Below the pieces are notes generated by a model, which saw only the letters and a program-made list of their open reading frames with translations, was not told the DNA's origin and searched no databases. From the NCBI GenBank assembly GCA_937902925.1, contig CALFNN010000006.1, positions 1-64,000 on the forward strand: a stretch of DNA of 64,000 bases. The letters are read 5' to 3'. Positions 14,996-16,824 of the stretch are shown here, piece by piece; position 1 is the stretch's first letter, and every line of letters begins with the position of its first letter. This DNA is from an uncultured Opitutaceae bacterium (lineage in GTDB: Bacteria > Verrucomicrobiota > Verrucomicrobiia > Opitutales > Opitutaceae). The translations under genes and the position numbers were made by a program.

Positions 14996-15110
14996 CCGGC
15001 GTCGCGGCGGTGCCCGCCCGGCCGTCGCCGCCCTGGGTGGAGCCCTGGCGCCGGACGAAAAACGGGATGGACACGGACGGCGCGGGCGTTTTTCCTCGCC
15101 CTCCCTCAGC

Positions 15111-15191
15111 ATGAACTCCGCTCCCGCCATCGTTCGCGCGATCAGCACCATTATTATTGGTCGCTCGCCCGGGCGCGGAAAAATGGCGTGA
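15111..15191 (+). CDS. Isoleucine-rich leader peptide of cimA
   Basis: A 26-codon open frame (ATG 15111, TGA 15189-15191) with five Ile codons, three of them consecutive (codons 14-16, 15150-15158) within AISTIIIG. It lies in the gap before citramalate synthase and is followed 26 nt later by an intrinsic terminator. This is the arrangement of a transcription attenuator: scarcity of charged tRNA-Ile would stall the ribosome on the Ile run. It has no SD, like many starts here. Translation is inferred, not proven. Confidence 0.7.
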   Translation: MNSAPAIVRAISTIIIGRSPGRGKMA

Positions 15192-15217
15192 GTTCACCCT
15201 CAATCGTCGTTTCTCTC

Positions 15218-15251
15218 ACCCCGGGCTTTTCGCCCGGGGTTTTTTGTTTTT
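15218..15251 (+). terminator. Attenuator terminator before cimA
   Basis: A perfect 9-bp stem, ACCCCGGGC (15218-15226) with GCCCGGGGT (15232-15240), a TTTTC loop and a TTTTTGTTTTT tail. It ends 7 nt before the cimA start, so it can only act by deciding readthrough into cimA. The left arm (CCCGGGC, 15220-15226) can pair instead with GCCCGGG at 15167-15173 in the leader ORF, 8 nt beyond the Ile run, giving a plausible antiterminator. Confidence 0.85.
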
Positions 15252-15258
15252 AACACCC

Positions 15259-16824
15259 ATGAGCAACTCCAACGTCAAGATCTACGACACCACGCTCCGC
15301 GACGGCACGCAGGGCGAGGGCATCAGTTTCTCGGTCACCGACAAGCTCCTCATCGCGGAACGGCTCGACCAGTTCGGCGTCGATTACATCGAGGGCGGCT
15401 TTCCCGGCTCCAACCCGCGCGATATCTCGTTTTTCAAGGAGGCTAAAAATCTGCGGCTCAAGCATGCCCGGCTCGCCGCGTTCGGGGCGACACGCCGCGC
15501 CGGCACGAAGGCGGCCGACGATGCGCAGCTTCGCACGCTGCTCGACAGCGGGATGCCGGTCATGACGATCGTCGGCAAGACGTGGACGTTGCACGTCACG
15601 GAAATCCTGCGGACGACGCTCGAGGAAAACCTTGCGATGATCGAGGACTCGGCCCGCTACCTCGTCGCCCAGGGGCGCGAGGTGATCTACGATGCCGAGC
15701 ACTTTTTCGACGGCTACAAGGCCGACCCGGACTATGCGCTGAAGACGCTGGCGGCGGCGTTGCGCGGCGGGGCCAGCAACCTCACGCTGTGCGACACCAA
15801 CGGCGGGACGATGGTGGATGAGTTCAAGGCGATCGTCGGCCGGGCGGTGAAGGAGTTCGGCGGGGAGAAAGTCGGCGTCCATTGCCACAACGACAGCGGC
15901 GTGGGCGTGGCGCTGTCGCTGGCGGGAGTCGCGGCCGGCGCGACCCTCGTGCAGGGCACGATCAACGGCTACGGCGAGCGCGTCGGGAATGCGGACATCG
16001 TGACGATCATGCCGAACCTGTTTTTGAAGATGGGCCGCACGGCGCAGTGCGCGCCGAACCTGGCGCAGTTGCGCGACCTCTCGATGTTTTTCGACGAGCT
16101 CGCCAACCTCCGCCCCGACCCGAAGGCGCCGTTCGTCGGGCAGTCGGCCTTCGCCCACAAGGGCGGGTTGCACGCCAATGCGGCGAACAAGGTGGCGCGG
16201 AGCTACGAGCACATCGATCCCACGCTGGTCGGCAACCGCACGCGCGTGCTGGTTTCCGACATGGCGGGCCGGACGAGCCTCGCGCTCAAGGCGAAGGAGA
16301 TGGGACTCGAACTCGACGAGAAGCGCCCGGAGATGAAGGGTCTCATCGAGGAGCTGAAAGAGCGGGAATTTCGCGGCTACGAATACGAGGCGGCCGATGC
16401 GTCGTTCAAGCTGCTGGTCGCGAAGGCGCTGGGCCAGCGGAAGGTGTTTTTCGAGGTGGAGAGTTACCGGGTGATCATCGAGCGCCATGGCGAGGAGCTG
16501 TGGGCCGAGGCGACGGTGAAGCTCCACGTCAATGGCGAGGCGGTCCACACGGTGGCCGAGGAGACCGGCCCGATCGGCGCGCTCGACAAGGCGCTGCGGC
16601 TGGCCCTGGAGAAGACCTATCCGCAGATCCGCGACATGAAGCTGCGCGACTACAAGGTCCGCATCCTTGAGGGCAACAGCGGCGCGGGGTCGCGCACGCG
16701 GGTGCTGATCGAGAGCGGCGACGGCCAGGCGATCTGGGGCACGGTCGGCGTCAGCGACAACATCATCGACGCGAGCTGGGAAGCCCTGCGCGAATCGGTG
16801 GAGTTCAAGCTGTCGCTGGGCTGA
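15259..16824 (+). CDS. cimA: (R)-citramalate synthase
   Basis: A 521-residue enzyme of the LeuA/CimA family that condenses pyruvate with acetyl-CoA to citramalate, entering isoleucine synthesis without threonine deaminase. The start region IYDTTLRDGTQGEGISFSV and the metal-binding GVHCHNDSGVG (near residue 207) mark the TIM barrel. INGYGERVGNAD and AFAHKGGLHANA follow, and a C-terminal LeuA-type regulatory domain begins near residue 380. The length and the QGEGISFS form favour the 520-aa citramalate synthase group over isopropylmalate synthase. The ATG at 15259 sits immediately after the terminator tail; in-frame sequence upstream runs through the terminator and was excluded. Confidence 0.93.
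   Translation: MSNSNVKIYDTTLRDGTQGEGISFSVTDKLLIAERLDQFGVDYIEGGFPGSNPRDISFFKEAKNLRLKHARLAAFGATRRAGTKAADDAQLRTLLDSGMPVMTIVGKTWTLHVTEILRTTLEENLAMIEDSARYLVAQGREVIYDAEHFFDGYKADPDYALKTLAAALRGGASNLTLCDTNGGTMVDEFKAIVGRAVKEFGGEKVGVHCHNDSGVGVALSLAGVAAGATLVQGTINGYGERVGNADIVTIMPNLFLKMGRTAQCAPNLAQLRDLSMFFDELANLRPDPKAPFVGQSAFAHKGGLHANAANKVARSYEHIDPTLVGNRTRVLVSDMAGRTSLALKAKEMGLELDEKRPEMKGLIEELKEREFRGYEYEAADASFKLLVAKALGQRKVFFEVESYRVIIERHGEELWAEATVKLHVNGEAVHTVAEETGPIGALDKALRLALEKTYPQIRDMKLRDYKVRILEGNSGAGSRTRVLIESGDGQAIWGTVGVSDNIIDASWEALRESVEFKLSLG

Follow-up and report, generated by a model that had tools for sequence, protein, structure and literature searches.

The citramalate synthase gene cimA is located in a stretch of 64,000 nucleotides from an uncultured Opitutaceae bacterium (Verrucomicrobiota), which is called the window. 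It is preceded by a short open reading frame (ORF) with a run of isoleucine codons and by a GC-rich hairpin, and this arrangement raises the question whether transcription of cimA is coupled to the isoleucine supply. The analysis indicates that the element is very probably a classical ribosome-mediated transcription attenuator, which senses charged tRNA-Ile and controls cimA.

The leader region of cimA and its competing hairpins

Table 1. Features of the leader region and of cimA; positions are those of the window.
Feature	Position	Strand	Remarks
Promoter-like box TGGACA	15068..15073	+	43 nt 5' of the leader ATG
Leader ORF MNSAPAIVRAISTIIIGRSPGRGKMA, then stop	15111..15191	+	26 codons plus stop; translation read
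Other Ile codons of the leader	15129 and 15141	+	read from sequence
Putative regulatory codons ATT ATT ATT (Ile-Ile-Ile)	15150..15158	+	read from sequence
Antiterminator 5' arm (end of leader ORF)	15167..15192	+	GCCCGGG 15167-15173, with the inner stem reaching 15192; folded with the terminator 3' arm left out
Antiterminator 3' arm	15199..15226	+	last part is the terminator 5' arm, CCCGGGC 15220-15226; fold
Intrinsic terminator hairpin	15218..15240	+	terminator scan; -19.7 kcal/mol
T-rich terminator tail TTTTTTGTTTTT	15240..15251	+	read from sequence
cimA, citramalate synthase, 521 aa, LeuA_dimer domain	15259..16824	+	TIGR00977, Pfam

A sequence-only reading had assigned the gene to cimA, and the assignment was supported by the equivalog model TIGR00977 (697.7 bits vs a cut-off of 450); the Pfam domains HMGL-like, HCS_D2 and LeuA_dimer were detected in the product. 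The same reading had described a 26-codon leader ORF with an Ile-Ile-Ile run, the segments GCCCGGG and CCCGGGC, and a perfect terminator with a T-tract that ends 7 nt before cimA. The coordinates of the ORF hold, both segments are at the claimed positions, and the terminator between the leader ORF and cimA was borne out by the sequence as well as by the terminator scan. Eight of its nine base pairs are G-C. The scan expects 0.9 terminators by chance in this region of the window, and thus the terminator by itself is weak evidence.

The genes lysC and thrC are located 5' of the leader, and another upstream gene may encode homoserine dehydrogenase, judging from its translation, so that the leader comes after threonine genes. 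No obvious ribosome-binding site was seen for the window leader, and an E. coli-type promoter scan of the leader region found no promoter. All 11 close leaders have a box of the type [TAG][GCT]GACA at positions -36 to -44 relative to their ATG; within -50 to -40 it was found in seven of the 11, and 2.5% of mononucleotide shuffles have one there. The TGGACA box of the window could thus be a -35 element.

The attenuator would work as follows. Transcription would start just 5' of the leader ORF, and a ribosome would translate the leader. With ample Ile-tRNA the ribosome would reach the stop codon (15189-15191) inside the antiterminator stem and mask the 5' arm, the terminator hairpin would form, and transcription would stop before cimA. 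With scarce Ile-tRNA the ribosome would stall at the Ile run and leave the RNA from 15167 onward free, the end of the leader would pair with the 5' arm of the terminator, and RNA polymerase would continue into cimA, which would thus respond to isoleucine.

The window leader region folded better than all 200 shuffles (z -4.0). When the 3' arm of the terminator was withheld, with the ribosome at the Ile run, an antiterminator hairpin of -30.2 kcal/mol was obtained (shuffle mean -17.8, z -4.3). The sequence-only reading had proposed that GCCCGGG and CCCGGGC pair in competition with the terminator, and it is exactly this pairing, 15167-15173 with 15220-15226, that closes the hairpin as its outer stem; the stop codon of the leader is within the inner stem. 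For the freed segment, the terminator state (-34.7) is more stable than the antiterminator state (-30.2), and therefore the switch would have to be kinetic. The minimum-energy fold of the window also contained a 1:2 protector (pause) hairpin, for which RNAalifold detected two compensatory pairs in 11 sequences.

Two candidates from the region and the genome were rejected. None of the nine Rfam matches at E values up to 1 between 14900 and 15400 belonged to a T-box family, arguing against a T-box riboswitch, and a DNA match on another contig of the same genome (C31) turned out to be a look-alike terminator sequence with no Ile leader beside it.

Conservation in front of cimA in the family

A check of relatives for an Ile-rich mini-ORF plus terminator, which the sequence-only reading had proposed, was run on genomes of the same family. 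Of 200 genomes, 164 had a cimA gene in a protein search; 123 upstream regions were taken and the other 41 were left out. The scan required a mini-ORF of 10-45 codons with at least three Ile in 10 codons, and a GC-rich hairpin with a T-run 10-75 nt further on. The mechanical scan detected the element in 45 of the 123 regions, which is not a clean frequency, because 13 of the loci had entered through matches of a leader model, next to two other sets of 30 and 80 loci. The expectation from the sequence-only reading was thus confirmed for 45 regions, and two more (G037 and G110) have an element that is visible by eye with hairpins that the scan missed. The same rule gave no hit in 20 dinucleotide shuffles of all 123 regions and none on the reverse strand of the 123. 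Conservation of the mini-ORF together with the terminator is not by chance.

No such element was found in 76 of the 123 regions, with the two cases seen by eye already subtracted; these negatives include four regions with only 60-260 nt upstream (G099, G113, G076, G156). A leader-like ORF with only two Ile (G150) was left uncounted. In attenuator-negative genomes, e.g., at L004, L014 and L017, a AAAAGCTCCCTTGCCAG box is conserved about 40-55 nt 5' of the cimA start codon, in some of them together with an AAATCT-like box near the ATG, which suggests mRNAs that are promoter-proximal and possibly leaderless. Many of the negative regions have a TTGCC-type box shortly 5' of the ATG, which suggests an unattenuated promoter.

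These results bear on the view that the hairpin is a plain terminator, either of upstream (thrC) transcripts or of a small RNA, with a mini-ORF that is there by chance. The Rfam scan of the leader is in line with it insofar as the matches, all below the gathering scores, were mostly to sRNA families that overlap the terminator, and the family has many weak matches to that end of the leader model which covers the terminator. This view is extremely unlikely, as the combination of mini-ORF and terminator is absent from all of the shuffles, and antiterminator complementarity and codons matched to the product of the downstream enzyme (see below) also speak against it.

The competing pairing that is predicted for an attenuator was also found beyond the window. 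Single sequences were folded against shuffles, because the inner stem varies between subgroups; for the same reason RNAalifold, applied to an end-of-leader alignment of 44 leaders (G014, in which the stop lies further on, was omitted), gave the CCCGGG pairing as the sole one. A pairing of 5 nt or more between the terminator 5' arm and the leader was possible in 41 of the 45 cimA leaders. Fewer than 5 nt were paired in G020, G049, G063 and G127, and in G049 the chosen stall point had removed part of the arm. The antiterminator had a mean z of -3.4 over the 45 leaders and a z below -1 in 43 of them. The 1:2 protector hairpin was weak in this set (mean z -1.4, 27 of 45 below -1).

Codon content and a second target gene

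Isoleucine was the commonest residue of the cimA leaders. Their last 24 codons include 242 Ile, 33 Leu and 29 Val codons in the 45 leaders, and Met was counted 26 times. ATT accounts for 168 and ATC for 74 of the 242 Ile codons; the 160 Ile codons of seven window genes comprise 13 ATT, 146 ATC and one ATA. As an internal control, ilvB, encoding acetolactate synthase, was analysed in the family. At the threshold used this ilvB was present in only 30 of 100 genomes searched, and after three partial matches had been dropped, 27 regions were left. Val-rich leaders (at least five Ile, Leu or Val in 10 codons) were found in 25 of the 27, with 201 Val, 82 Leu and 11 Ile in the last 25 residues of the 25 leaders. 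The genome of the window is among the positive ones, with an ilvB copy (L333, G000:C105:249543-251195) that has a terminator and a Val-rich leader ending in LALVVVSVVVVTHAPRGA before the stop. The leader codons therefore appear to be matched to the product of the downstream enzyme, which supports isoleucine sensing in the case of cimA.

Further biosynthetic genes were inspected. In the genome of the window, the scan detected no attenuator in front of hisG, ilvB copy 1 and the long ilvA. A probable His attenuator, a His-rich short frame plus terminator, precedes hisG in genus g40 (L257 of G039, L261 of G073, L267 of G095); the frame of G039 ends with MVLNHHHHHSS. A leuA-like gene on contig C80 of the genome of the window (L330) is preceded by a short ORF, MRVSLQALRLIIAHDL, which ends within a GC-rich inverted repeat; no terminator was found in this upstream region, and a different type of uORF control is possible.

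Eleven cimA leaders were used to build a covariance model whose sole structure was the terminator, and 252 genomes of the family were searched with it. Matches of about 24-28 bits, among those listed, were taken as mostly terminators and were not counted. Among 25 inspected matches away from the sampled cimA starts, seven were in front of cimA in genomes outside the 123, 14 in front of a short threonine dehydratase gene (ilvA), one in front of a 526-aa IlvA, and three (G072, G160, G149) were unrelated to any such gene on inspection and were rejected. The short enzyme of G004 has a PALP domain only and lacks an ACT domain. The IlvA of the window's own genome (404 aa) passes the cut-off of ilvA_1Cterm, and its end matches ACT weakly, below the threshold; for the remaining IlvA proteins, length, open frame and identity were the sole criteria of classification.

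When the G004 enzyme was used as the query of a protein search, 30 loci were obtained, 22 short and eight long, with G185 (odd C-terminal extension) and G128 (in-frame TAG) classed as short by identity rather than length. An Ile leader plus terminator was present in front of all 21 testable short genes; the 22nd (G116) is at a contig edge. None of the eight long genes of this search had the element. Twenty further genes were taken as long, and only G122 (354 aa, no C-terminal domain seen) was positive; it was reclassed as short after its positive result, so that none of 27 long genes (8 + 19) has the element under this classification. Two more short genes with a leader, G048 and G021, were found as leader-model matches, and the G021 gene seems to be broken or frameshifted. 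This gives 24 positive short ilvA genes, 21 of them free of selection by leader or of reclassing. The Ile leaders in front of the short ilvA genes are a further argument for isoleucine sensing. The idea of an Ile leader as a control of cimA was supported but was too narrow in one respect, because the same attenuator family is found before ilvA and a Val version before ilvB.

Two IlvA-like loci were different. One short gene (L071, G114:C42), which was not counted, has a degenerate motif, GSSRERG where the others have GSFKERG, and a Leu/Val-rich leader; it is possibly a repurposed or decaying paralog. The 526-aa IlvA (L079, G232:C47) follows a Thr-Thr-Thr-Ile-Ile-Ile mini-ORF and a terminator-like hairpin, which resembles a leader of the thr-operon type.

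The ilvA leaders are rich in Met among the Ile codons (e.g., L063, L066, L067); the terminal 25 residues of 21 leaders contain 55 Met when start codons are counted. This would fit a true attenuator that senses something besides isoleucine, e.g., methionine or the overall translation rate. Such sensing is unlikely in view of the 242 Ile vs 26 Met in the 45 cimA leaders and of the window leader, in which five Ile codons but no run of Met codons occur.

The Ile-rich leaders of the two genes were also compared with one another. With a model of all 45 cimA leaders, the ilvA leaders of G004, G033 and G040 scored 106.5, 105.3 and 97.4 bits, those of G048, G003, G006 and G021 46 to 62 bits, and matches without Ile leader about 30 bits. 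The probable His leader of G039 reached 39 bits, and thus moderate scores alone are no proof of kinship. The ilvA leader of G033 and the cimA leader of G085 were identical at 48 of 57 positions, with a score of 39 (codon-shuffled, best-of-45 null: mean 13.8, maximum 22). Leaders of the CTGAG type were less close (G064 29, G003 21, G208 24; null maxima 21, 18 and 18, respectively).

The arms of the two types were exchanged in duplex calculations, in which all arms lacking CTGAG, one unusual cimA arm among them, were assigned to the CCGGG class. For cimA leaders the mean energy was -14.3 when they were paired with their own terminator arm, and -10.0 when they were paired with CTGAG-type arms. 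The values of CTGAG-type ilvA leaders were -15.4 (own arm), -8.1 (cimA arms) and -11.6 (CCGGG-type ilvA arms), and those of CCGGG-type ilvA leaders were -15.5 (own arm) and -10.8 (CTGAG arms). The leader arm and the terminator arm have thus changed together between attenuator types, and no other result supports the pairing as well.

This co-change also bears on the idea that the leader peptide itself acts, with its C-terminal tail as an arrest sequence or in trans and with incidental Ile codons. The tail, PGxGxxA followed by the stop, is strikingly conserved in many cimA leaders. Where the terminator arm is GCCCTGAGC, however, the tail becomes SGRRRV.., encoded by the DNA TCAGGGCGG that is complementary to this arm, and a tail that changes with the complementary arm fits conservation for base pairing over conservation for the peptide. 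In addition, the leader codons follow the downstream enzyme, and an action of the peptide is very unlikely.

In 16 genomes a short ilvA was present and cimA had been sampled, and the scan found the cimA attenuator in none of them but in 45 of the remaining 107 (p 0.0005, not corrected for kinship); one of the 16 is G116, whose ilvA at the contig edge was not scorable for the attenuator. This either/or placement is a lead and not a proof. The product of cimA and threonine dehydratase are unrelated enzymes that lead to the same intermediate, 2-oxobutyrate. It is conceivable, with about as much doubt as confidence and a slight excess of doubt, that one Ile-sensing attenuator is a portable cassette that moved between cimA and the ACT-less threonine dehydratase gene, never being present at both, and that it substitutes for the missing feedback domain on IlvA. 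Of all parts of the analysis, the either/or cassette is the least proven and also the most interesting. Regulation would then seem to be tied to the metabolic step and not to the gene, i.e., one attenuator family serves two unrelated enzymes and one intermediate.

Distribution and comparison with known systems

Outside the family, no full-length match above 35 bits was found in 273 genomes of the order (family included). Among the matches listed, those in other families were partial, or, in G302, a full-length match of 29 bits without Ile leader. Two of 80 named cimA loci were positive, both of which are also in the family set; the 71 loci with an identity of at most 65% were all negative. As the models are sequence-specific, unlike attenuators elsewhere could be missed. 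The sequence-only reading had held that an Ile leader on cimA in Verrucomicrobiota is undescribed, and this was upheld in the open-licence full-text literature, which yielded no report of an Ile leader on cimA or of one in Verrucomicrobiota. The mechanism is known; what looks new in the literature covered is the lineage, the choice of cimA and the ACT-less ilvA as targets, and the either/or placement. A natural control pair would be provided by the Ile leaders of cimA or ilvA and the Val leaders of ilvB, and it makes the sensing rule directly testable.

As judged from its sequence, the element works like classical leader-peptide attenuation and has its testable core features. The ilvL leader of E. 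coli has mixed Ile, Val and Leu codons and controls a whole operon. The cimA element shares with ilvL-ilvGMEDA a short leader ORF with regulatory codons and an antiterminator that competes with an intrinsic terminator; in contrast to ilvL, Ile dominates in the cimA leader, which is placed before the gene that commits pyruvate to isoleucine. The E. coli ivbL-ilvBN system has a Val/Leu leader before acetolactate synthase, and the ilvB attenuators of the family look alike, while the cimA element has other sensing codons and another target. T-boxes differ from the cimA element in that they work without a leader ORF, by direct binding of tRNA.

The two E. coli operons, ilvGMEDA and ilvBN, are named in PMC1183508. 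For Bacillota, PMC12452182 lists T-box control of leuA (COG0119, isopropylmalate/homocitrate/citramalate synthases), which is likewise RNA-based control within the same protein group as cimA. Leader-peptide attenuation of branched-chain amino acid genes outside Proteobacteria is described for Actinobacteria in PMC1262725 and PMC11857589, in that case in another lineage and, in PMC11857589, with the ilvBNC operon as target. A statement in a survey of 2010 (PMC2965389) reads that, to its authors' knowledge, before their Firmicutes case no leader-peptide system had been shown outside Proteobacteria and Actinobacteria, except for the atypical ermC leader. The element described here would extend classical leader-peptide attenuation to a family of Verrucomicrobiota and to the citramalate route of isoleucine synthesis.
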